Origin: an uncultured Thomasclavelia sp. | GTDB taxonomy: Bacteria > Bacillota_I > Bacilli_A > Erysipelotrichales > Coprobacillaceae | Reading direction: 5' to 3' | Length of the DNA: 46,243 nt | NCBI RefSeq assembly: GCF_944324745.1 | Contig: NZ_CALUXO010000086.1 | Span: 1 to 46,243, forward strand | In this document: piece after piece, positions 1,286 through 22,805 of the stretch | Layout of the letters: the number at the start of each line of letters is the position of its first letter | Numbering within the stretch: the first letter of the stretch is position 1 | The notes under the pieces: model-generated | What the model was told of the DNA's origin: nothing | The model's database searches: none | Seen by the model: only the letters and a program-made list of their open reading frames with translations | Made by a program: the position numbers and the translations under genes

Positions 1286-3001
1286 ATGAATTATGATAAG
1301 TATCCAGAAACTAAAATAATTGGATTTGATCATGAAGCTTTTGGAAATTTAAATGCGATGAAACAAGAATTATTAAAAGTTACTCAAGATATTTGTTATT
1401 TGACGGTTGATTGCTATCCAGGAGTTGATGACGAAGTTTTTGATTTTATAGTGGCAGTTTTTCAACCAGAAAGAATAATTAAAAGTGAAGATGTTTTTTA
1501 TGACAAAGAGCAACTAAATGAATTGATGCAGCCTCATTTAACTGATGATCGTGTTAGAGGTGTAATGTTTTATGGAAAGCTTGAGGATTTTATTGATCAA
1601 TCTAAATTAAAGAAAGTAAAAGATAGGTTACAAAATCATCAAAAGACACTAATATATGGAGTTGGTGCTGGCTTGATTAGTACTGGTGATTGTTATATCT
1701 ATTGCGATTTGGCTAGATGGGAAATTCAATGTCGTTATCGTGCTGGAATGCCTAATTTTAAAGCCGAGAATTATCATGAAGATTCTTTAAGAAAAATTAA
1801 AAGAGGTTTTTTTATTGAATGGCGTATTGCTGATAAACATAAAATGAAGATGTTTGAACAAGTTGATTATTTTATTGACAGTAATCAAAAAGGTCATTTA
1901 AAAATGATAACTGGATCAGCTCTACGTCAGGGGTTAAAACAGATAGTGAAACAGCCGTTTCGATTGGTACCTTATTTTGATCCTGGAATCTGGGGAGGGC
2001 AATGGATGAAAAAGCATTGCAACTTAGATCCAAACGCTAAAAATTATGCCTGGAGTTTTGATGGTGTACCAGAAGAAAACAGTTTGTATTTGCGATATGG
2101 TCAAGTGAAAATTGAAATTCCTGCTATGGATTTAGTGCTTTATCAGCCAATAGAATTATTAGGAATGAAAAATTATTGTCGCTTTGGTGCTGAATTTCCA
2201 ATTAGATTTGATTTTTTAGATACTGTCGATGGTCAAAACTTAAGTCTACAAGTTCATCCTTTGACCGAGTATATTAAATCTCACTTTGGAATGACTTATA
2301 CTCAAGATGAAAGCTATTATATTTTAGATGTTCAAGATCATGGTGGCGTATATCTGGGGCTTAAAGAAAATATTGACCCTCAGGCAATGATTAGTGATTT
2401 AAAAAATGCCCAGACTGGTAAAAAGACATTTGAGGTAGATCGGTATATTAATTTTTTTCCTGCTAAAAAACATGATCATTTTTTAATTCCGGCTGGAACA
2501 GTTCATTGTTCATCATCAGGCTGTATGGTTCTTGAAATCAGCGCTACTCCATATATTTTTACTTTTAAATTATGGGATTGGGATCGTTTAGGATTAGATG
2601 GTTTACCACGTCCTATACATATCGATGATGGGAAAAATAATATTCAATGGAGTCGGACTACCAGCTGGGTTCAAGAAAATCTTGTTAATAAAATAGAAAT
2701 CATCCACCAAGATGATGATTATTTGGAAGAAAAGACAGGATTACATGAATTGGAGTTTATTGAAACAAGAAGATTCACTACGGACAGTAAAACTTATCAT
2801 CATACCAATGATGGAGTACAGATGCTTAATCTTGTAGCTGGATCTAGCGCGGTTATTGAGAGTCCAACTAATACTTTTAAGCCCTTTGTTGTTCATTATG
2901 CAGAAACGTTTATCATTCCTAGTATTGTTAATGAATATACTATCCGCCCCTATCATCAAGGCGAAACAATAAAATTTATCAAAGCTTATGTTCGTAATTG
3001 A
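1286..3001 (+). CDS. manA: Class I mannose-6-phosphate isomerase with N-terminal extension
   Basis: A 571-residue cytosolic protein. The C-terminal ~350 residues form the type I phosphomannose isomerase cupin: QVHP with zinc-ligand candidate H324, and AGTVHC with H407, followed by a strongly conserved LEIS segment. It interconverts mannose-6-phosphate and fructose-6-phosphate, the step after mannose uptake by the upstream PTS. The first ~210 residues are an extra domain seen in the long Firmicute/Bacteroidetes versions; it resembles a nucleoside/uridine-kinase fold, but the phosphate-loop position reads GVGAGL with no GK[ST], so kinase activity is not expected. The gene lies 17 bases after the HAD gene and ends at a strong terminator. 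Confidence 0.88.
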   Translation: MNYDKYPETKIIGFDHEAFGNLNAMKQELLKVTQDICYLTVDCYPGVDDEVFDFIVAVFQPERIIKSEDVFYDKEQLNELMQPHLTDDRVRGVMFYGKLEDFIDQSKLKKVKDRLQNHQKTLIYGVGAGLISTGDCYIYCDLARWEIQCRYRAGMPNFKAENYHEDSLRKIKRGFFIEWRIADKHKMKMFEQVDYFIDSNQKGHLKMITGSALRQGLKQIVKQPFRLVPYFDPGIWGGQWMKKHCNLDPNAKNYAWSFDGVPEENSLYLRYGQVKIEIPAMDLVLYQPIELLGMKNYCRFGAEFPIRFDFLDTVDGQNLSLQVHPLTEYIKSHFGMTYTQDESYYILDVQDHGGVYLGLKENIDPQAMISDLKNAQTGKKTFEVDRYINFFPAKKHDHFLIPAGTVHCSSSGCMVLEISATPYIFTFKLWDWDRLGLDGLPRPIHIDDGKNNIQWSRTTSWVQENLVNKIEIIHQDDDYLEEKTGLHELEFIETRRFTTDSKTYHHTNDGVQMLNLVAGSSAVIESPTNTFKPFVVHYAETFIIPSIVNEYTIRPYHQGETIKFIKAYVRN

Positions 3002-6659: not shown

Positions 6660-7367
6660 ATGGATTTTAAAGACAAAGTAGTTGTTATAACGGGAGGAGC
6701 TTTAGGAATTGGTAAATGTATCAAAGAAATGTTTATCAAGGAAGGAGCTCATGTTTGTACGATCGATATTTTAGAAAATGATTATTTTCAAGGCGATATG
6801 GGTAATAAAGAAGTATTAGAACAGTTTGCAAGGAAAGTAATCGATGATTATGGTCATGTTGACTATTTGATCAATAATGCTAAACCGATTTTTAAAGGTA
6901 TTGATGAGTGCAGTTATGAAGAATTTCAATATGCATTAGCTGTTGGAATTACCGCACCATTTTATTTAACTAAATTATTAAAAAATCATTTAAATAAAAG
7001 TGCCTGTATTATCAATATGTCATCATCTCGTGATCGAATGAGTCAAAAACAAAGTGAAAGCTATAGTAGTGCTAAAGGTGGTATTTATGCTTTAACACAT
7101 GCCATGGCTAATTCTTTAGCTGGTATTGCTCGAGTTAATTCTATTTCGCCGGGGTGGATTGATACGAATAATCAAGATTATCAAGGACCTGATGCTACTC
7201 AGCATTTAGTTAAACGAGTTGGTAAAGTTGAAGATATAGCCAACATGGTTTTATTTTTGTGCAGTGATAAAGCTGGTTTTATTACTGGTGAAAATATTTG
7301 TATTGATGGCGGTATGACTAGACAAATGATTTATCATGGTGATGATGGCTGGAAGTTAGATGAATAA
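6660..7367 (+). CDS. SDR-family NAD(P)-dependent oxidoreductase
   Basis: A 235-residue classical short-chain dehydrogenase with an AGGAGGA ribosome site. It has the nucleotide motif TGGALGIG (residues 11-18), NNA (NNAKP) and a catalytic Ser-Tyr-Lys set: S122, Y135 and K139 in YSSAK. The C-terminal DGGMTRQM segment is normal. It oxidises or reduces a hydroxyl/carbonyl group with NAD(H) or NADP(H); the substrate is not evident. It has its own terminator and upstream TGAAA repeats and opens the redox cluster that ends at 15571. Confidence 0.92.
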   Translation: MDFKDKVVVITGGALGIGKCIKEMFIKEGAHVCTIDILENDYFQGDMGNKEVLEQFARKVIDDYGHVDYLINNAKPIFKGIDECSYEEFQYALAVGITAPFYLTKLLKNHLNKSACIINMSSSRDRMSQKQSESYSSAKGGIYALTHAMANSLAGIARVNSISPGWIDTNNQDYQGPDATQHLVKRVGKVEDIANMVLFLCSDKAGFITGENICIDGGMTRQMIYHGDDGWKLDE

Positions 7368-7396: not shown

Positions 7397-7536
7397 GGAT
7401 AAAATGAAATATCGTTTTATTTTTTTGAATTAAATTATTAGTTATTTGTAAATGATAAATTAGTTTTAACTGTTTATATATCTTTATCTAAAATTTTTGT
7501 TTAGACTTACTATGACAAATGTTTAGGAGGATTAAG

Positions 7537-8258
7537 ATGATTATAATCGCTATATTGATTAGTACTTTATTGGCTGGATTTATTCAGGGAGTATCTGGCT
7601 TTGGGGCTGGAATTGTCTTTATGAGTGTAATTCCCTACTTTTTGAGTGTTATATCTTCAGCTGTAATTTCTAATTTTATGAGTGTGTTTTTGAATTTGTT
7701 GATGACCTATCATTATCGTCAAGCAATTAATAAGACAATTATTGTTTTACCGGCGCTTTTTTTTATTATCGGTGGTACTTTGTCACTTTATTTTGTTACG
7801 ATGATCGATACAGCTTTTTTAAAATTAATTTTAGGTCTTTTTTAACGATACTGGCCATTTATTTTTATTTTTTTAGTCATAGAGTAAAGATTACTAACAA
7901 TATTTTTACCATGTTTCTTTGTGGCTTTGTTTCTGGAGTATGTGATGGATTATTTGGAATTGGAGGACCATTAATGGTGTTATTTTTCTTGGCCTTGACT
8001 AATTCTAAAGATGAATATTTGGGAACTATTTCATTATTCTTTTTAATTGTTTGTAGCTATAATCTAATTTTTAGAATAGTTCACGGAATTTTTACTCTGC
8101 AGCTTTTGCCATATGCTTTATTATCGTTAATTGTGGTCTTTGTAGGATTACAACTAGGAAATCGAGTTGTTTGTAAAATTGATGAACAGCGATTAAGAAA
8201 AATAACATATATATTAATAGGTTTTTCAGGAATTATTACTTTATTAACAGCGATTTAG
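7537..8258 (+). pseudogene. TauE/SafE-family permease, single-base frameshift
   Basis: Two halves of one polytopic membrane protein. Translation should start at ATG 7537, 6 bases after AGGAGG (the earlier ATG at 7519 precedes that site). The first half has LAGFIQGVSGFGAGIVF, the second GVCDGLFGIGGPLMV: the two GxxxGxGGG-like inverted-repeat motifs of TauE/SafE (DUF81) sulfite/organic-anion exporters. The frame breaks at a 6-T run (7838-7843). One extra T gives LGLFLTILAIYFYFF and a continuous ~240-residue protein, the family's normal length. So it is either a recent loss, a slippage-controlled gene or a sequencing error. It is followed 9 bases later by an MFS gene. Confidence 0.82.
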
Positions 8259-8267
8259 GAGGAGATT

Positions 8268-9419
8268 ATGGAAAGAGTTTTGATTCGTTATCAAGAGAGT
8301 TATTTAAGCTATTTCTTGATGTATTTATTTAGTTACATTGCTTTAGCTGTTTTTTCTAGTTATATTTCTATTTATTTAATGGATATAGGATATAGTGGCA
8401 GTGAAGTGGGATTTGTTGTTTCATGTTCATTTGTGCTGTCGATGATCACGCAACCATTTATTGGAATTTTAAATGATAAATACCATGATCAAATTAATGA
8501 GTTATTATTAATAATTGCCGGAATATTAGGAATAGTCTTTATCTATTTACATAATATTTTATTAATTGGTTTAATTTATGGGCTGGTCTTAGCGATTATC
8601 AACGGAATTACGCCGATGCTGGAAAAGAAAGCTACCATTTCCAGCCATCCGTATGTTTCTATTAGAATCTGGGCGACAATTGGCTATGCTGTGGGATCTT
8701 TGATTGGTGGGTTGATCTATCATCATATTTCCCCTGATGCTATGTATGTTTTATTTACGTTGGCAATTTTTATTAGTGTGCTGGGTATTCATGGAACTCG
8801 TGATATTCCTAGTGTAAAAAATAATAGTAAAACCCCAATAACAAAAGTATTTTTAAATAAACAAGTTTTGCTTTATTTTGTAATTGCCTGTTTATTTTAT
8901 GGAACTACAAATGTCAATACGACATATTTACCAGCGATGTTTCAAAGTGTCGGTATGTCAATGGATTATGTTTCAACGATAATTCTGATCTTGACTTTAT
9001 TTGAATTGCCAATCATTGCTTTAAGTAAGTATATTAACCGAATTAGTAATAAAACTTTATTAATTATTAATTTTAGTATTATCATTGTTCAGTTTATAGT
9101 TTATGCTTTTATTTCTAATCTAGTAATTGTCGTTATAACGGCATTTTTAACTAAAGCGGTAGCGACGATGTTATTTATTATGGTCAATATGAAAATAGTG
9201 TCTTATTTAGTCGCTGACCAATATCAAATGACGGCATTGGCTTTAGTTTCGACAGTTAAAAGCTTTTCATCAATTTTATTTCAATTTGTGGCCGGATATT
9301 TAGTGGATTTTTATTCATATCAATTCTTATATTTTGTTTTAGCTTTAATAGCGATCTTAGGATTGATTGTAGTTTTATTTTATCGAATTGGAACAAAAGA
9401 CGAAGTATTATTTCAATGA
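8268..9419 (+). CDS. MFS transporter
   Basis: A 383-residue integral membrane protein with about 12 hydrophobic helices and GGAGG upstream of ATG 8268. After helix 2 it has the MFS loop GILNDKYHDQ, a variant of G-x-x-x-D-R/K; the opening FSSYISIYLMDIGYSGSEVGFV matches the MFS_1-like (LacY/nucleoside-permease) branch. It probably carries the small molecule processed by the flanking dehydrogenases. It likely shares a transcript with the broken permease 9 bases upstream and ends at a strong terminator. Confidence 0.88.
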   Translation: MERVLIRYQESYLSYFLMYLFSYIALAVFSSYISIYLMDIGYSGSEVGFVVSCSFVLSMITQPFIGILNDKYHDQINELLLIIAGILGIVFIYLHNILLIGLIYGLVLAIINGITPMLEKKATISSHPYVSIRIWATIGYAVGSLIGGLIYHHISPDAMYVLFTLAIFISVLGIHGTRDIPSVKNNSKTPITKVFLNKQVLLYFVIACLFYGTTNVNTTYLPAMFQSVGMSMDYVSTIILILTLFELPIIALSKYINRISNKTLLIINFSIIIVQFIVYAFISNLVIVVITAFLTKAVATMLFIMVNMKIVSYLVADQYQMTALALVSTVKSFSSILFQFVAGYLVDFYSYQFLYFVLALIAILGLIVVLFYRIGTKDEVLFQ

Positions 9420-9434
9420 TAAGATGTTTTATTT

Positions 9435-9470
9435 GACTAAACCAGAATATTTTCTGGTTTAGTCTTTTTT
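9435..9470. terminator. Strong terminator shared by MFS and RpiR genes
   Basis: GACTAAACCAGAA (9435-9447) and TTCTGGTTTAGTC (9452-9464) form a perfect 13-bp stem with a 4-base loop and six Ts. The stop of the converging RpiR gene lies within the stem. Confidence 0.92.
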
Positions 9471-10348
9471 AGCTTTTTCGGTAATTATTTCATTATCAAT
9501 AACTCGATTAGTTTCAACCTGTTTAGCTACATTAACTTTATAATTTAAATTATCTTGATAATTTAAATTAAATAAACAGCTATATAAAATATCTAAAATC
9601 AAATTGATCGATGTCAATGAAGAAAATCCTGCAATTTTAGAAAAAGATTTCTCTCTGGTTGTTATATTTAAAGTAACATCCGCCATTTTAGTAAGACTAT
9701 TAGACCCTAGACTGGTAATGGCAATAACAGGAACCTGATTTTTTTTAAAAATCTAACCGTTTTTAATAATGTTGGAGTTTCTCCAGAATAAGAAAGACAA
9801 ATGGCACATTCGTCAGATGTTGCCATAAGCGCGTTTTGAAACATATTATCTTGAATTGGATCAATTTTGGCTTTTTTATTAATTCGGTTTAATTTAAAAA
9901 CAAATTCTTCACCAGCATAATTTAAATTAGCAATAGCAAAAACATGGACATTTTTAGAATGATTTAATAGCATTACGGCTTTTTGCAGGGAATCATGATG
10001 AACTAACGATAGGGTATCATTGATACTTTCTAGATGTAAATTAGAAATTCGGCTGGCAATATTCATAATATTATCTTGACTGGTAAAAGGATAATTGGCA
10101 TCGATATCTTTAAAATGACGGTTTAAATATTTTGCTTCAGCGACAAAAGCCTCTTTAAATTCATTCCAGCCAGAAAAGCCCAGTTTTTTAGAAATTCTAA
10201 TTAAAGTAGATGGAGAAGTGTAGGTTTCTGTGGCAATTGATTTAGTGGAATAATCAGCAATTAGTTCGTCTTTATCTAAAATAAAATTGATAATGATGGT
10301 TTCACTATTTGAAAAATGAGTAGTTTTCATTTTCTCTTTAAGTAACAT
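9459..10348 (-). pseudogene. RpiR-family regulator, single-base frameshift
   Basis: Start ATG 10348, preceded by GAGGTGA. The N-terminal HTH_6 domain (TYTSPSTLIRISKKLGFSGW) and SIS sugar-phosphate domain (AICLSYSGETPTLL) are intact up to an A-run (Ts at 9739-9746 on the plus strand), where the frame is lost; one more A gives LKKNQVPVIAITSLGS and joins the remaining 75 codons. The corrected protein (~296 residues) is clearly paralogous to the regulator at 14687-15571, sharing DTLSLV-HDDLQKAV-like and SYSGETP blocks. It would control the surrounding redox genes in response to a sugar phosphate. If the frameshift is real, most of the SIS domain up to its dimer interface is still made, but the last helices are replaced. 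Confidence 0.85.
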
Positions 10349-10388
10349 GGCTTTCACCTCGGTTTTATTATAGCTAATTTAAATCTTG

Positions 10389-10426
10389 TTTACAAATAAC
10401 TCAATTTTTTAAAAATGATTTGTAAA
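10389..10426. promoter_or_regulatory. Long-spaced palindrome in the RpiR / Fe-ADH intergenic region
   Basis: TTTACAAAT (10389-10397) and ATTTGTAAA (10418-10426) are perfect inverted copies 20 bp apart, in the divergent region between the RpiR gene and the Fe-ADH gene. An ATTTGTAAA half-site also occurs at 7444-7452, before the TauE gene. It is a good candidate operator for the adjacent regulator. Confidence 0.5.
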
Positions 10427-10514
10427 AGATATTTTATAGTTGAAATGAACACTGTTTTTAATAAGTTATCTTGTGCTATTTTATTGGTAGAAAGATGACA
10501 AGGAGGAATCGGTG

Positions 10515-11684
10515 ATGTTAAATTTTGTTTATCAAAATCCTACTAAGATTATTTTTGGAAAAGGGGTCATAGATAATTTAGCTGATGAGATCTTAAATTA
10601 TGGTCGCAAAGTATTAATTGTCTATGGTGGCAAAAGTATTTTTAATAATGGACTTTATCAAAAAATTATTGATCAATTTGATCAAAAGAAAATTGAATAT
10701 TGTGAATTAGCTAATGTAACTGTTCCATCACTTACATTATTGTATCAGGGAATTGAAATTGCTAAAAAAAATCAAGTTGATGTAATTATTGGGATTGGCG
10801 GTGGCTGCTGTATTGATATGGCTAAGTCAATTGCCGTTGGTGCTAGTAATGACGTAGATATTTGGGATGTATTACAGGGAAAGGTTCCTTATCAGATATT
10901 AAATTGTCTACCAATCGGAGCAGTAGTAACGATTGCTGGTAGTGGCAGTGAAATGGACGGTAATAGTGAAATTGATAATTTAGAAACGGGTGAACATGGA
11001 AGTATTGGTAGTTTTTTAAAAACTTATCCCGCCTTTAGTATCTTAGATCCTGAGTTAACTTATAGTTGTCCATTTACCCTAACAGCTTATCATGGAATGA
11101 CGATTATTGTTCAAGCCATGGAACAATATCTAGTTGATCGTGAAGCAACTTATATTCAAGATGGTTTTGTCGAAACAATCTGTAAGACTGTTATTAGTTC
11201 TTTAAGAACTTTAAAAGAAAATTTGCATGATTATAATGCTCGAGCAAACTTAATGTGGGCGAGTGCAATTACTTGTAATCGAATTTTAGGACGGGGTAAA
11301 AATGCTCCATGGTTAGGGGGACCTTTAGGTGGCTTGATTGACGATAAGTTAAAAATCACTTATGCACAAGGAATTACGATTACCTGGCCAAAATTTTTAA
11401 TTACTTGCTATCAAGATTATGTACAAACATTGAAGTCATTTGCGTTAAATGTTATGGAAATTGATCCGGCCGGTAAGACCTGTGACGAAATAGCTAAAGC
11501 TGGGGCACTAGCTTTACAGGATTTTGTTGATGAAATGGGGTTGGCCCATACAGTTAAAGATTTGAACTGTGGCAATCATGAAGTTGTAGAATTTAATGAT
11601 AAAATTGAAAAATTAGCTAGTCGTCAAATAATTAGTAAAGAAGATATTGAAACAATAGTAAAATTATCAATTAAAGGAGAGTAG
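10515..11684 (+). CDS. Iron-ADH-fold protein lacking all four metal ligands
   Basis: A 389-residue member of the YqhD/BDH branch of group III (iron) alcohol dehydrogenases. ATG 10515 is 8 bases after AGGAGG; a GTG at 10512 is possible. Fold and cofactor segments are normal: YQNPTKIIFGKG, GGGCCIDMAKSIA (usual GGGS-xx-D) and AGSGSEMDGNSEI. Aligned without gaps to E. coli YqhD as I recall it, the metal ligands D194, H198, H267 and H281 fall on T196, Q200, G269 and Y283 here; H271 also becomes G273. Normal metal-dependent hydride transfer to an alcohol or aldehyde is therefore not expected. It might be an NAD(P)-binding regulator or a different catalyst. It starts an operon with the aldo/keto reductase 5 bases downstream. 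Confidence 0.88.
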   Translation: MLNFVYQNPTKIIFGKGVIDNLADEILNYGRKVLIVYGGKSIFNNGLYQKIIDQFDQKKIEYCELANVTVPSLTLLYQGIEIAKKNQVDVIIGIGGGCCIDMAKSIAVGASNDVDIWDVLQGKVPYQILNCLPIGAVVTIAGSGSEMDGNSEIDNLETGEHGSIGSFLKTYPAFSILDPELTYSCPFTLTAYHGMTIIVQAMEQYLVDREATYIQDGFVETICKTVISSLRTLKENLHDYNARANLMWASAITCNRILGRGKNAPWLGGPLGGLIDDKLKITYAQGITITWPKFLITCYQDYVQTLKSFALNVMEIDPAGKTCDEIAKAGALALQDFVDEMGLAHTVKDLNCGNHEVVEFNDKIEKLASRQIISKEDIETIVKLSIKGE

Positions 11685-11689
11685 AGAAA

Positions 11690-12793
11690 ATGTTATCAAA
11701 TTCTAAATTAGGTTTTGGTTTAATGCGTTTACCAAAAGATGAAAACGGTACAATTGATATTAATCAAGTAAAGTTCATGGTTGATGCTTATATGAAAGCT
11801 GGTTTTAATTATTTTGATACCGCTTATGTTTATGGCGGTAGTGAAGCAGCAATGAAAGCAGCACTGGTTGATCGTTATCCTCGTGATGCTTATACGATTG
11901 CCGATAAGCTTCCAGCTTGGAAACTAAATAGTGAAGATGATGTTGCTCGTATTTTTAAGGAATCATTAGAAATTTGTGGTGTTGATTATTTTGATTTTTA
12001 TTTATTACACAGTATAGAAAAGAAACATTATCCTACTTATGAAAAATATCATTGTTTTGAATTCATTCAAGAGATGAAAAAGCAAGGAAAGATTAAGTAT
12101 ATTGGATTTTCATTCCACGATACTGCTGATTTCTTGGATAAAGTTTTAACTGAGCATCCAGAAATTGATTTTGTTCAGCTACAATTAAATTATTTAGATT
12201 GGGAAAATGGTGTAATTCAATCACGTAAAAATTATGAAGTGGTTAGAAAACATCATAAACCAATTGTGGTTATGGAACCAGTTAAGGGTGGAACATTGGC
12301 ATCATTTCCTGAAGAAATTGAAAAAATTTATCGTGATTATGCCCCAGATAAATCAATTGCTTCTTGGGCTCTTAGATATATTGGCTCAAAAGATGGGGTG
12401 ATGACAATTCTATCAGGAATGTCAAATGAAGAGCAAATGAATGATAACTTAAAGACAATGTCAGATTTTAAGCCATTATCTAAAGAAGAAGATGATTTGA
12501 TTCGAAAAGTAGTTGGACAGGTTCTTTCATACCCAACGATTCCATGTACAGCCTGTCGTTATTGTGTTCCAGGTTGTCCAATGAATATTCAAATTCCTGA
12601 TTTATTTACTGCCTATAATAGCGCAAAAACTTATGGTTCTAATACTCGCTATAATACTTATTATAAAGATCATACTGGTGGCGAATTTAGTTTAGCTAGT
12701 GCCTGTATTGAGTGTGGTCAGTGTGAAGGAGTATGTCCACAACATCTAGAAATTATTAATTTATTGAAGGATGTTGCAGCTGGATTTGAATAA
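11690..12793 (+). CDS. Aldo/keto reductase with C-terminal 4Fe-4S domain
   Basis: A 367-residue cytosolic oxidoreductase. The AKR barrel carries the tetrad D43, Y48 (DTAYVYG), K73 and H107 (YLLHS). The C-terminus adds two cysteine sets, C286/C289/C292/C296 (CTACRYCVPGC) and C339/C342/C345/C349 (CIECGQCEGVC), predicting two 4Fe-4S clusters. This architecture is common in anaerobes and suggests electron exchange between NAD(P)H or a carbonyl substrate and ferredoxin-like carriers. It follows the Fe-ADH-like gene by 5 bases and is followed 47 bases later by the rhodanese-fold gene, so all belong to one transcript. Confidence 0.92.
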   Translation: MLSNSKLGFGLMRLPKDENGTIDINQVKFMVDAYMKAGFNYFDTAYVYGGSEAAMKAALVDRYPRDAYTIADKLPAWKLNSEDDVARIFKESLEICGVDYFDFYLLHSIEKKHYPTYEKYHCFEFIQEMKKQGKIKYIGFSFHDTADFLDKVLTEHPEIDFVQLQLNYLDWENGVIQSRKNYEVVRKHHKPIVVMEPVKGGTLASFPEEIEKIYRDYAPDKSIASWALRYIGSKDGVMTILSGMSNEEQMNDNLKTMSDFKPLSKEEDDLIRKVVGQVLSYPTIPCTACRYCVPGCPMNIQIPDLFTAYNSAKTYGSNTRYNTYYKDHTGGEFSLASACIECGQCEGVCPQHLEIINLLKDVAAGFE

Positions 12794-12840: not shown

Positions 12841-13164
12841 ATGAATATTGGTGGTATGGAGCCGGGGCAGGCTTTAGAGTATATGAAAAATAATCCTGAT
12901 TTGGTTTTAATTGAATGTACTGAGCCGGAGTGGAAGTTAAATCAAAATTTTGATGGTTCCCTTTATATTCCTTTTACGTTAATGGATGAGCGCTTTAATC
13001 AAATTCCTGCTAGTAAAAAGATAATTTTATATAGTGAAGATGGTAATACTTCAAAACGAGGTTATGAATGGTTGAAAAATAAAAAGATGGATATTGAAGA
13101 GCTTAGTTATATTGATGGAATTCCTAAGATTTATGAATATAATAATTGGAAAAGACATCATTAA
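12841..13164 (+). CDS. Rhodanese-homology protein without catalytic cysteine
   Basis: A 107-residue single-domain protein behind an AGGAGG site. Its pattern follows rhodanese: helix 1 EPGQALEYMKNNPD, strand VLIEC at the usual LxDVR position, then FDGSLYIPF for the normal H-I-P-G-A-x-x-I-P segment, KKIILYS and the loop EDGNTSKRGYEWL. The active-site position, normally VYCxxGxRS, reads LYSEDGNTS, so the persulfide-forming Cys is S65. No sulfurtransferase activity is expected; inactive rhodanese domains often serve as binding modules. Start and stop are clean and it sits mid-operon, so it looks maintained rather than decayed. Confidence 0.7.
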   Translation: MNIGGMEPGQALEYMKNNPDLVLIECTEPEWKLNQNFDGSLYIPFTLMDERFNQIPASKKIILYSEDGNTSKRGYEWLKNKKMDIEELSYIDGIPKIYEYNNWKRHH

Positions 13165-13825: not shown

Positions 13826-14641
13826 ATGGATATTAATACACGGGTGAAATTATGTTGTGCTACTAAGATGCCAGTTGTAGCTCTTGGAGTTTGGCAAAGT
13901 GGCACTAAAACTAAACAGGCCGTTTTAGCAGCATTAAAAGCTGGTTATCGTCATATTGATACGGCATCTTGTTATGGCAATGAAGCAGCCGTCGGTGAAG
14001 CAATTAAAGAAAGTGGTATTGATCGTAAGGAAATTTTTGTTACGACTAAGCTATGGAATGATGATATTCGTAGTCAAAATGTGCGCCAGGCTTTATTAGA
14101 TAGTTTAAATCGATTACAATTAGACTATGTTGATCTTTATCTAATTCATTGGCCGGTCACTGGATATGTCGATGCTTATCTAGAAATGGAAAAGTTGAAA
14201 AAAGAGGGTTTAACTAAAAGTATTGGGGTATCTAATTTTCGTAAAGCTCACTTACAAAATTTATTGTCTAAAGTTAATAAAATTCCTGCTGTTGATCAAA
14301 TTGAAATTAATCCCTGGATGCAAGATGAAGAAACCATTCAATTTTGCCAAGAAAATAAGATTGTTCTCGAGGCCTGGTCGCCACTTGGAAATGGGGCTTG
14401 TTTACAAATTAAGGAACTGGAAGTGATAGCTAATAAATATCATAAATCAGTTGCTCAGATAATTTTAAGATGGTTATTGCAAAGAAGAATCGTAGTTTTA
14501 CCTAAATCGGTTCATTCAACTCGAATTAAAGAAAATATTGATTTATTTGATTTTAAACTAACTGATGATGAAATGACGTTGATAAATTCATTAAATCAAA
14601 ATCATAGAACCGGACCCGGTCCTGATAATTTTGATTTTTAA
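13826..14641 (+). CDS. Aldo/keto reductase, AKR5-like (diketogluconate reductase type)
   Basis: A 271-residue NADPH-dependent carbonyl reductase. Signature 1 GYRHIDTASCYGNEAAVG holds D45 and Y50, with K75 (TTKLW) and H108 (LIHWP) completing the tetrad. The C-terminal cofactor signature ILRWLLQRRIVVLPKS is also present. Length and motifs match the 2,5-diketo-D-gluconate reductase/prostaglandin F synthase subgroup, which reduces aldehydes and ketoses. It has no Fe-S tail, unlike the reductase two genes upstream, and it is the last gene of the operon before a terminator. Confidence 0.93.
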   Translation: MDINTRVKLCCATKMPVVALGVWQSGTKTKQAVLAALKAGYRHIDTASCYGNEAAVGEAIKESGIDRKEIFVTTKLWNDDIRSQNVRQALLDSLNRLQLDYVDLYLIHWPVTGYVDAYLEMEKLKKEGLTKSIGVSNFRKAHLQNLLSKVNKIPAVDQIEINPWMQDEETIQFCQENKIVLEAWSPLGNGACLQIKELEVIANKYHKSVAQIILRWLLQRRIVVLPKSVHSTRIKENIDLFDFKLTDDEMTLINSLNQNHRTGPGPDNFDF

Positions 14642-14648
14642 TAAAAAT

Positions 14649-14688
14649 ACCTGTGAACTAGTTTAACTATGCTCACAGGTTTATTTTT
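14649..14688. terminator. Bidirectional terminator ending the redox operon
   Basis: ACCTGTGA (14649-14656) pairs with TCACAGGT (14673-14680); part of the 16-base loop can also pair. TTATTTTT follows on the plus strand and TATTTTT on the minus strand, serving both the AKR gene and the converging RpiR gene. Confidence 0.8.
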
Positions 14689-15571
14689 AGAAATCATCTT
14701 CCTTAATTATATCGATTGTAGAAAAACGGCCTTTTTCAATCATTGATGAAATCTTGGTCTTTCGTTCCACGTTTTGATCATAATTTAAAGCAAAAATACA
14801 AGAGAATAATAGATCTAAAATATATTCAAAAGAGATATCAGTAGAAAATGTAGCAATTTTGCTATAAAGCTTTTCTCTGGTACAAATTCTTAAAACAACA
14901 TCAGCATTTCTGGATAGCGTATTTTCACCAATATTAGTAATAGCGATAATCGGAATCTGATTGGTTTTTAGAGCTTTGATAACTCGAGACAATATTGGAG
15001 TTTCGCCTGAATAAGACATGATAATGGCACAAGCAGTGCTATCAATATTAAAAGCACTATAAACTAATTCCCCTTGAAGGTTACAGATAGTGACCTTTTT
15101 TTGAATTCGTGACATATTATGAGCAAATTCTTGTGAAATTAATCCATTATTACTGACAGCAAATAAATAGATAGAACTAGTTTTTCTAATTGTTTGGACA
15201 GCTTTTTGCAAATCATCATGAGTTACTAGTGATAGAGTATCATCGAGAGCTTCTTTTTTTAAAGTAGCTAATTTAGAAGCAATTGACATAATTGTATCTT
15301 CATTGCTAAAAGGAAAGTTGGCATCAACGTCTAGAAAATGGGTTTGTAAATACTCTTCTTCTTTTAAATAAGCTTCTTTTAATTCATTCCATCCTTTAAA
15401 TTTCATTTTATGAGCTATTCTTATTAATGTTGATGGTGAGGTATAAGTCGCATTAGCGATATCTTTGGTGGTCATTTCTTTAATTGCCATCTTTTTTTCT
15501 AAAATATAATCAATAATTGCTCGTTCACTATTGGAAAATTCACATCTTTCTAATCTTTCGCGTATTAACAT
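14687..15571 (-). CDS. RpiR-family transcriptional regulator
   Basis: A 294-residue protein. I choose ATG 15571, 8 bases after an AGAGGTGA site; a GTG 30 bases upstream lies before that site. Residues 1-75 are the HTH_6 domain with TYTSPSTLIRIAHKMKFKGW, and the C-terminal half is a SIS sugar-isomerase domain (IIMSYSGETPILSRVI) that binds phosphosugars. It is the intact paralogue of the frameshifted regulator at 9459-10348. The two bracket the dehydrogenase cluster and face each other, which suggests that both sense the pathway's phosphorylated intermediate; direction of regulation is unknown. A TTATCA/TGATAA palindrome lies upstream at 15695. Confidence 0.93.
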   Translation of the reverse strand: MLIRERLERCEFSNSERAIIDYILEKKMAIKEMTTKDIANATYTSPSTLIRIAHKMKFKGWNELKEAYLKEEEYLQTHFLDVDANFPFSNEDTIMSIASKLATLKKEALDDTLSLVTHDDLQKAVQTIRKTSSIYLFAVSNNGLISQEFAHNMSRIQKKVTICNLQGELVYSAFNIDSTACAIIMSYSGETPILSRVIKALKTNQIPIIAITNIGENTLSRNADVVLRICTREKLYSKIATFSTDISFEYILDLLFSCIFALNYDQNVERKTKISSMIEKGRFSTIDIIKEDDF

Positions 15572-15694
15572 TAACGTATCACCTCTAATTAATCTTAACA
15601 CAATCTTTTTATCTTAGCTATTGGCAAAAGTGCTTTGATTATTGATACTATCAAACTTTTAAATCTGATTTTTTGAAAAAGCGGTTTTAATATT

Positions 15695-19546: not shown

Positions 19547-21901
19547 ATGTTTGATTTAAAAACTAGTGATCGAATTGAAGTATTAAAAAATAAGATGCTA
19601 GATGCGCCACGTTATGCTTCGATTGAACAAGCTAGAATCATTACGCGGATTTATCAAGAAAATGAAACACTATCAATTCCTAAAAAAAGAGCCTTATCAC
19701 TAAAAGCAGCATTGGAAGAATTAGAAATTAGTGTTGAACCAGAAGAATTAATCGTTGGTAACCGTACTAAAGGAGTACGTTCTGGTGTTGTTTTTCCTGA
19801 AAGTGGTTGTTCGTGGATCGATAGGGAGTTTGAAAGCTTACCAACCCGTCCTCAAGATCAGTTTTTAGTTGATCCAGCTGATATTCAAGAGTTTCGAGAA
19901 ACTATCTATCCGTATTGGAAAGGTAGATCAATGGAAGACGTGATCAAAGATAACTATGGATTGCAAATTGAAGCTATTGCCAAAGTTGTTAAAATCAATC
20001 AAAAAGATCATGCCCAGGGACATATTTGTCCTGATAGTCAGTTATGGCTACAATTAGGCCCACATGGTTTAATGGACCGAGCTGTTAAAAAAATGCAGAT
20101 ATGTGATAATAGTCAAAAAGAATTTTATGAATGTGTTATTCTGGTCATGCAAGGAGCGATGAATTTCATGGTTCGCTATCATGATTATATTGATAAAATG
20201 CTGAATACTGTAGATAAAAAATATCAGGAGTCATTAAAAGAAGTCAGCCGTAGTTGTTTAAAGCTATCAAAACAGCCACCAGAAACTTTTCATGAAGCTA
20301 TGCAGTCATTATGGTTTTTATTTGTAATCTTGCATATGGAATCTAATGCTTCTTCTTTTTCGCCAGGACGAATGGATCAGTATTTATATCCATATTTAAA
20401 AAAAGATTTAGATCAGGGCAGACTGACCCTGGAGACAGCATTAGAAATTATTGAATGTTTATGGTTGAAATTTAATCAGATTGTTTATTTAAGAAATCAA
20501 AATAGTGCTAAATATTTTGCCGGTTTTCCAATTGGTTTTAATATTGCTATTGGCGGCGTGGATGAAGATGGTAAAGATACTTATAATGATTTATCAATGT
20601 TATGTCTAAAAGCCCAGTATGATCTAGGTTTACCACAGCCAAACTTATCAGTTAGATTGAATAAGAATTCTTCACATGAATTAATGCAGGCAGCAATTAA
20701 GGTAGTGGCTAGAGGTAGTGGTATGCCACAGTTTTTCAATGATGAAGCCATAATTCAACCATTGATTGACGATTTAAAGATTGATCAAAAAGATGCTCGA
20801 AATTATGCTATCGTTGGATGTGTGGAACTTACGACGCATGGAAATAATTTAGGCTGGTCTGATGCAGCGATGTTTAATTTAAATAAGGCCTTGGAACTAA
20901 CATTAAATAATGGAAGATGTTTATTAACTAATCAAAAAATTGGGTTGGATTTAGGAAATATTGAAACCTATCAAACCTTTGAACAATTAGAAGCGGCCTT
21001 TAAGCAACAGATTGATTATTTTATTGATCAAATGATGAAAGCAGAAGTTGTCGTAGAAAAAGCCCATCAGGATTGTTTACCAACAGCCTTTTTATCAAGT
21101 GTAATTGATGACTGTTTAGATAAAGGACTAGATGTCACTCGAGGTGGTGCTAAATATAATTTATCAGGAACCCAAATGATTCAAATTGCAAATCTGGCTG
21201 ATTCATTAGCGGCAATCAAACAATTAGTTTATGATGAAAAGATGATTTCTAGTCATGAGTTACTTGAGGCTTTAAAAGCTGATTTTAAAGGACATGAAAT
21301 TACTCAGACAATGTTATTAAATAAAGTACCAAAATATGGTAATGATGTGGCCTGGGTTGATGAACTGGGAGCTAAATGGGCTGGTTATTTTAGAAATCGA
21401 ATGAACGATTATACTAATTATCGTGGTGGTCCTTATCATACCGGGATGTATACTGTCTCTGCTCATGTGCCGATGGGGGAAAATGTCGGAGCTTCACCTG
21501 ATGGACGAAATGCAATGACTCCATTAGCTGATGGTGGTATGTCACCGGTTTATGGTCGTGATATGTCGGGACCAACAGCGGTTTTAAAATCGGTATCACG
21601 AATGAAAAATTCATATACTACTAATGGTGGTTTATTAAATATGAAGTTTTTACCAGAATTTTTTAATACGGAAACGGGAATGCTGAAATTTGAAAATTTC
21701 TTAAGGGCCTTTGTCGATTTAGAAATACCACATATCCAGTTTAACGTTGTTAGACGTGAAGACTTGATAGATGCAAAAATTCATCCAGAAAGACATCGTT
21801 CATTAACTATTCGAGTGGCTGGCTATACGGCTTATTTTGTCGAACTGGCTGGAAAGTTGCAAGATGAAATAATTGAGCGGACGAGTTATGACAATATCTA
21901 A
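19547..21901 (+). CDS. Glycyl radical enzyme, PflD/YbiW-type dehydratase/lyase
   Basis: A 784-residue cytosolic, oxygen-sensitive enzyme with GGAGAAGG upstream of ATG 19547. The thiyl-radical Cys is C425 in IVGCVEL, with the C-x-E pattern of C-O/C-N-cleaving family members rather than the CC pair of true pyruvate formate-lyase. The glycyl radical site is G759 in RVAGYTAYF, about 25 residues from the end. It is activated by the radical-SAM protein encoded next (14-base overlap). A fructose-6-phosphate-aldolase-type gene follows. In E. coli this trio (YbiW or PflD, activase, FsaA/FsaB) opens 1,5-anhydroglucitol- or anhydromannitol-6-phosphate to 1-deoxyfructose-6-phosphate. I infer an anhydrohexose-phosphate substrate here; glycerol or diol dehydratase activity is the main alternative. 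Confidence 0.9.
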   Translation: MFDLKTSDRIEVLKNKMLDAPRYASIEQARIITRIYQENETLSIPKKRALSLKAALEELEISVEPEELIVGNRTKGVRSGVVFPESGCSWIDREFESLPTRPQDQFLVDPADIQEFRETIYPYWKGRSMEDVIKDNYGLQIEAIAKVVKINQKDHAQGHICPDSQLWLQLGPHGLMDRAVKKMQICDNSQKEFYECVILVMQGAMNFMVRYHDYIDKMLNTVDKKYQESLKEVSRSCLKLSKQPPETFHEAMQSLWFLFVILHMESNASSFSPGRMDQYLYPYLKKDLDQGRLTLETALEIIECLWLKFNQIVYLRNQNSAKYFAGFPIGFNIAIGGVDEDGKDTYNDLSMLCLKAQYDLGLPQPNLSVRLNKNSSHELMQAAIKVVARGSGMPQFFNDEAIIQPLIDDLKIDQKDARNYAIVGCVELTTHGNNLGWSDAAMFNLNKALELTLNNGRCLLTNQKIGLDLGNIETYQTFEQLEAAFKQQIDYFIDQMMKAEVVVEKAHQDCLPTAFLSSVIDDCLDKGLDVTRGGAKYNLSGTQMIQIANLADSLAAIKQLVYDEKMISSHELLEALKADFKGHEITQTMLLNKVPKYGNDVAWVDELGAKWAGYFRNRMNDYTNYRGGPYHTGMYTVSAHVPMGENVGASPDGRNAMTPLADGGMSPVYGRDMSGPTAVLKSVSRMKNSYTTNGGLLNMKFLPEFFNTETGMLKFENFLRAFVDLEIPHIQFNVVRREDLIDAKIHPERHRSLTIRVAGYTAYFVELAGKLQDEIIERTSYDNI

Positions 21902-22805
21902 AGCACTAGTATTTGATATCAAGCGCTTTGCCATCCATGATGGCCATGGACTTCGAACGACCATCTTTTTTAAAGGGTGTCCGTTAAGATGTAAATGGTG
22001 TCAAAATCCTGAAGGGTTATCATCGAAACAACGACCAATTTATTTTGAAAATAGCTGTATTCATTGCAAATTATGTCAAAAAGCAGCCTATACTAATCAA
22101 ATGATTTATAAAAATAATCGTCCTTATTTTAATCTTAATTATGCTGGAGGGTTTGATAATTTGATCAAAGCTTGTCCTAGTGGGGCAATCCGTTATGATA
22201 GCTATGAATATGATCTTGATGGTTTGATGACCAAGATTAAAGAAGACCGGGTCTTTTTTCGGGAAGATGGTGGGGTCACTTTTTCTGGTGGTGAGCCCTT
22301 AAATCAAGGTGCGTTTTTACAGGCAATATTAAAAAGATGTCATGAAGAAAATATTAATACAGCAATTGAGACATCATTATATGCTTCAAAGGAGTTAATA
22401 AAAAGCATTTTACCGTTTTTAGATTTAATTTATATTGATTTAAAAGCTTTTGATGAACAAAAACATTATGAATTAACTGGAGTTTCTTCAAAGTTGATCA
22501 AAGAAAATATTGAGTATGTTTTAACAAGCGTACATAAAGACAAAGTAATTATTAGAACGCCTTTAATTCCCACGATGACAGCTATCGATGATAATATCAG
22601 CGCTATCAGTAACTTTTTAGTTAAGATTGATCCGGAAGTTAAATATGAATTATTAAATTATAATCCCTTAGCAGAAGCTAAATATGAACTGGTTGATCAA
22701 GAATATGGGTTAGATAAATCATATAAAATGTTTGATTTAAAACAAATGCAACATTTCTATGATATAATAAATGAAAGTGGTTTGAAAAATATTATAATAG
22801 AATAA
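21888..22805 (+). CDS. Glycyl-radical enzyme activating protein (radical SAM)
   Basis: A 305-residue radical-SAM protein. I start it at ATG 21888, which overlaps the end of the glycyl radical enzyme gene; a TTG 15 bases earlier is possible. The SAM-cluster motif is CPLRCKWC (C-x3-C-x2-C) after FFKG, and FSGGEPL is the SAM-binding GGE motif. An inserted ferredoxin-like part has CIHCKLC, and a further Cys in ACPSGAI about 45 residues on, enough for one extra 4Fe-4S cluster; the usual second cluster's cysteines are not complete. It abstracts a hydrogen from G759 of its partner under anaerobic conditions. Coupled translation implies matched expression. Confidence 0.93.
   Translation: MTISKALVFDIKRFAIHDGHGLRTTIFFKGCPLRCKWCQNPEGLSSKQRPIYFENSCIHCKLCQKAAYTNQMIYKNNRPYFNLNYAGGFDNLIKACPSGAIRYDSYEYDLDGLMTKIKEDRVFFREDGGVTFSGGEPLNQGAFLQAILKRCHEENINTAIETSLYASKELIKSILPFLDLIYIDLKAFDEQKHYELTGVSSKLIKENIEYVLTSVHKDKVIIRTPLIPTMTAIDDNISAISNFLVKIDPEVKYELLNYNPLAEAKYELVDQEYGLDKSYKMFDLKQMQHFYDIINESGLKNIIIE

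Follow-up and report, generated by a model that had tools for sequence, protein, structure and literature searches.

The window, meaning the whole stretch of 46,243 nucleotides from an uncultured Thomasclavelia sp. that was analysed, contains at 10515-11684 (+) an open frame of 389 codons, which begins with the ATG at 10515 (a longer mechanical start would be the GTG at 10512) and ends with TAG (Table 1). The gene was originally predicted to be intact, to possess a good ribosome site and to lead an operon. Indeed, the frame is open and AGGAGG precedes the start codon, and a leading position fits the arrangement of a divergent rpiR gene upstream and an aldo-keto reductase (AKR) gene that starts only 5 bases downstream. 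Promoter-like and terminator-like sites occur at no more than chance level.

The divergent rpiR gene (9400-10357, −) is disrupted by a single frameshift: its orthologues measure 293-299 aa, and the missing C-terminal part lies in another frame. Between the two genes stands the perfect inverted repeat TTTACAAAT-N20-ATTTGTAAA, a candidate RpiR operator. One related locus (L071) has identical repeat arms at the same 20-base spacing around a different spacer sequence, and half-sites occur at related loci. The TauE/SafE-type permease has 108 codons in one frame and the remainder in another, and is a single 242-aa gene at two other loci (L031 and L075); its split is a single frameshift, either real or an assembly error. 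Sulfonate metabolism, to which the TauE gene and a SarD match might point, is unsupported, as the SarD match falls far below its cut-off and the TauE gene is inconstant across loci. Elsewhere in the window, a 107-aa rhodanese-like gene lies between the AKR and a methyltransferase (12841-13164; just below the Pfam cut-off, no NCBIfam match), a 571-aa open reading frame (1286-3001) has no match in Pfam or NCBIfam, and a PFL2/3-type glycyl radical enzyme and its activase (19547-22805) have best equivalog scores below the cut-offs.

Table 1. Features of the locus in map order, with positions counted from the first letter of the window.
Feature	Position	Strand	Basis
SDR oxidoreductase, recurrent in the cluster	6660..7367	+	locus comparison
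TauE/SafE-type permease in two frames	7519..8258	+	locus comparison
MFS transporter, LacY / sugar-efflux-like, recurrent in the cluster	8268..9419	+	Pfam, NCBIfam, locus comparison
RpiR/SIS regulator, divergent, 216 aa, truncated by frameshift	9707..10357	−	Pfam, locus comparison
Perfect inverted repeat between divergent rpiR and the 389-aa gene	10389..10426	.	sequence comparison
Shine-Dalgarno AGGAGG, 8 bases 5' of the ATG	10501..10506	+	read directly
Fe-ADH-fold protein without metal ligands, 389 aa	10515..11684	+	ORF, Pfam, phmmer, MAFFT, structure model
Codon T196, at ligand position D194	11100..11102	+	alignment, YugJ map
Codon Q200, at ligand position H198	11112..11114	+	alignment, YugJ map
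Codon G269, at ligand position H267	11319..11321	+	alignment, YugJ map
Codon Y283, at ligand position H281	11361..11363	+	alignment, YugJ map
AKR with C-terminal two-[4Fe-4S] ferredoxin domain, conserved partner	11690..12793	+	Pfam, locus comparison
DkgA-like aldo-keto reductase, recurrent in the cluster	13826..14641	+	Pfam, NCBIfam, locus comparison
Second RpiR/SIS regulator; orthologues adjoin the cluster in other genomes	14687..15601	−	Pfam, locus comparison

The 389-aa protein is a YugJ/YqhD-type homologue of the iron-containing alcohol dehydrogenases (Fe-ADH). Both domains of the two-domain family (PF00465 and PF25137) are recognised by Pfam above their cut-offs (Fe-ADH, 4.5e-40, 137 bits; ADH_Fe_C, 2e-15, 57 bits), and the closest solved structures found by phmmer are YugJ (7w9x, 1.2e-63), TM0820 (1vlj) and YqhD (1oj7/4qgs). 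The protein is not YqhD itself, because it scores 176.6 bits with the NCBIfam YqhD equivalog NF011717 against a cut-off of 645. An AlphaFold2 model on an 18-sequence alignment (pLDDT 90, pTM 0.89) was compared with known structures using Foldseek and VIA-align. The best match was YugJ with NADP and nickel (7w9y; Z 49.0, rmsd 2.3 over 378 residues, 33% identity), followed by 1vlj and YqhD, with maleylacetate reductases at Z 35-37; a common fold is in itself no proof of function.

The nickel ligands of YugJ have been defined crystallographically as D194, H198, H267 and H281 (PMC8836905). The original prediction had set the four metal ligands on T196, Q200, G269 and Y283, and this placement proved exact. 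A residue map on YugJ agrees with a MAFFT alignment to seven canonical homologues, each of which shows D/H/H/H at columns 196, 200, 269 and 283, where the query shows T/Q/G/Y. The divalent-metal ligands of group III ADH are absent from the protein. That such a loss is common by chance in the Fe-ADH family is ruled out by the controls (34 hits representing 31 distinct genes, three being listed twice, drawn from this genome and from a phylum sample of 61 genomes): D-H-H-H is kept in 34 of 34 full-length Fe-ADH hits, this genome's other paralogues included, and the equivalent of K160 is likewise present in all of them.

A homologue search, which the original prediction had proposed, recovered relatives with the same replacement set from independent assemblies at 50-83% identity. 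All 11 aligned clade members have Q200, G269 and Y283, together with T, E or C at position 196. The carriers, gut Firmicutes, comprise a Thomasclavelia MAG, a Candidatus Stoquefichus MAG, Beduini massiliensis, uncultured Erysipelotrichaceae and Lachnospiraceae/Hungatella MAGs. Sequencing error, for which the original prediction had left room, is ruled out because independent assemblies carry the same set. The clade is monophyletic (support 100/100) and its long stem, at 1.19 changes per column, is followed by constraint inside the clade, with the caveat that the most divergent member of the tree sits on a long branch. Pairwise dN/dS values of 0.04-0.27 indicate purifying selection, in agreement with the earlier view that the gene is maintained.

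The occurrence of the gene is patchy: it is present in the window, in eight of 42 listed relatives in the window's family and in three Lachnospiraceae genomes, one of which has two copies, and samples of the phylum, the Lachnospiraceae and the genus revealed no further carrier genome. Since the Lachnospiraceae copies nest within the clade, the tree suggests that they were acquired by transfer. In the plasmid and phage collections all relatives fall below 60% identity, and below 36% among the matches listed. The genomes searched contain no intermediates with part of the ligand set. Profile scores in the same genomes break off at about 263 bits for canonical members and resume at 660 or more for the clade. 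A homologue search likewise shows a gap in identity (35% versus 50%).

It is highly improbable that the gene is decaying or a sequence artefact. Decay does occur in its surroundings, as the neighbouring TauE and rpiR genes are frameshifted in this assembly, an orthologue in Clostridiales bacterium CHKCI006 (L033, 6001-7625) is wrecked by several frameshifts, and another (L030) has a TAA in frame, beside a broken AKR gene. However, the frame is open here and in ten aligned relatives, dN/dS lies well below 1, and the ligand set is the same in independent assemblies. In the CHKCI006 locus the start of the adjoining AKR gene is frameshifted too, and the pair of Fe-ADH-like gene and AKR is decaying jointly.

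For the cofactor and substrate cleft, the NADP, metal and substrate contacts were taken from YugJ (PMC8836905) and each column was read across the clade. The expectation that the NAD(P)-binding and core motifs remain held for only part of the pocket. G38/G39/S41 at the 2'-phosphate (one clade member lacks G38), GGG 95-97 at the pyrophosphate, T139 at the adenine and D101 are retained, and the protein possesses both the GGxS loop of the NADP(H) type and the GGG loop. In contrast, the nicotinamide-ribose contacts are gone, N71 through a one-residue deletion and K160 through replacement by an invariant H161, and with them the Lys160/Asn71 pair of group III ADH. Because these two residues hold the nicotinamide ribose, ordinary hydride transfer is doubtful. 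Further contacts are replaced as well: S99 by C or T, G149 by an invariant N150, W163 by I164 and N147 by D148 (D is also found in some canonical members), while the substrate-binding His271 has become G, N or S. The clade has additional invariants of its own in E152, H193, R256 and R260, and the lid stretch NRILGRGK is invariant throughout.

Invariant residues occupy 16 of 23 cleft positions versus 101 of 366 elsewhere (p 6e-5, an indicative value that ignores shared ancestry), and 8 of 14 in the rewritten cleft subset versus 109 of 375 (p = 0.03, likewise indicative, as related sequences are counted). This pattern is better explained by rebuilding of the site towards a new ligand or a new chemistry than by drift. 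The rebuilt site could in principle still bind metal, at a position relocated to shifted residues such as H193, H161, E152, Q200 and Y283. H193, invariant and three residues (about one helical turn) ahead of T196, would suit such a site, as would the invariant H161 and E152. However, position 196 varies between T, E and C, and the three other classical ligands have turned into Q, G and Y, so we regard a metalloprotein as improbable.

A conserved companion of the gene is the AKR-ferredoxin gene, which adjoins it in 13 of 14 loci with a gap of 1-5 bases in several; it lies downstream in the window's family and upstream in Lachnospiraceae. The exception (L029/L079) belongs to a genome with a second, complete pair. 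The AKR tetrad D43/Y48/K73/H107 and the eight cluster cysteines are invariant in 16 sequences, and no report of an AKR-ferredoxin fusion paired with an Fe-ADH was found in the literature. The wider cluster recurrently includes an RpiR regulator, an MFS transporter, an SDR and a DkgA-like AKR. Four genomes (L065-L068), whose AKR shares 74-77% identity with that of the window, carry a largely similar cluster that lacks the ADH-like gene, which makes the ADH-like protein an accessory of this redox/transport module.

Such an accessory could be a non-catalytic pseudoenzyme with NADP(H) or a metabolite as its ligand and a regulatory or scaffolding role towards the neighbouring AKR-ferredoxin protein, a reading we consider possible but rather unlikely. 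The metal ligands and nicotinamide-ribose contacts are all lost while the ADP-phosphate end is kept, pairing with an AKR of intact catalytic tetrad is near-obligate, and an NADP(H)-sensing partner would give the same co-conservation. Against this, the new invariant polar cleft residues and the invariant lid exceed the needs of a sensor, and close relatives of the AKR exist without the ADH-like protein. A purely inert scaffold appears less favoured, because the rewritten cleft is conserved above average and NRILGRGK is invariant. Among the options raised by the original prediction, metal-independent chemistry seems the best, and the protein has probably been repurposed in a metal-free form instead of being a broken enzyme.

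Comparison with characterised systems sets the protein apart from each of them. It shares with YugJ of Bacillus subtilis (7w9x/7w9y), an NADPH- and Ni-dependent furan aldehyde reductase, and with E. coli YqhD (1oj7) the whole fold (Z 49 and 46.6, identity 33% and 26%, respectively), the GGxS loop at the NADP 2'-phosphate, the GGG loop and the lid-position Trp (W264, here W266). Unlike in these enzymes, the four metal ligands, K160, N71 and His271 are replaced, new invariants have appeared and an AKR-ferredoxin gene is the genomic partner. Maleylacetate reductases (GraC 3w5s, 3hl0; PcpE) share the fold of the superfamily (Z 35-37, 17% identity) and are active without metal, their Asp ligand being replaced by Asn or Arg (PMC5125639), and they retain the His-rich signature LHHKLCHTLGG (PMC5741723). 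In contrast, the 389-aa protein has PWLGGPLGGL at this place and no His ligand left, and its nearest kin are YugJ/BDH. A metal-free state has also been suggested for FeADH2 (cd08183) and part of HEPD (cd08182) from an Asp to Gln ligand change (PMC5125639); in these uncharacterised groups only the Asp change is described, which distinguishes them by description. Metal-free members of the Fe-ADH fold family are thus already known; no description of an Fe-ADH branch lacking all four ligands plus the nicotinamide-ribose lysine was found in the accessible literature.

Taken together, we infer a protein that needs no metal, binds NADP(H) and has a rebuilt active site, and that works jointly with its AKR-ferredoxin partner on a metabolite resembling a sugar, a proposal to which we would give about an even chance. 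The adenosine 2'-phosphate end of NADP(H) is probably still held in the N-terminal domain, and the conserved lid (NRILGRGK..W) would close over a small ligand. The old metal and nicotinamide-ribose positions are now occupied by the invariant H161, Q200, G269 and Y283, with the invariant H193, N150, E152 and R256 nearby in sequence, so that any chemistry would be metal-free and of an acid-base or polar kind. The use of His and Tyr in place of a metal would be comparable to the maleylacetate reductases. The protein would act in the same pathway as the adjacent AKR-ferredoxin fusion, and its probable substrate is a metabolite resembling a sugar or sugar acid, which the clustered MFS transporter would handle with RpiR as the regulator. 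A bolder version, in which the protein founds a new metal-independent enzyme class that holds NADP(H) mainly by its adenosine end and whose invariant His/Tyr/Glu/Arg set is catalytic in complex with the two-[4Fe-4S] AKR, is speculative and rather improbable.

Family models label the 389-aa protein an iron-containing alcohol dehydrogenase, which is very probably wrong as to function. Its clade illustrates that a metalloenzyme fold can lose its metal site entirely, along with half of its hold on the cofactor, yet stay under selection. Further, the gene marks an undescribed redox cluster of gut bacteria, comprising the AKR-ferredoxin, an SDR, a DkgA-type AKR, an MFS transporter and RpiR, whose substrate can be searched for directly.
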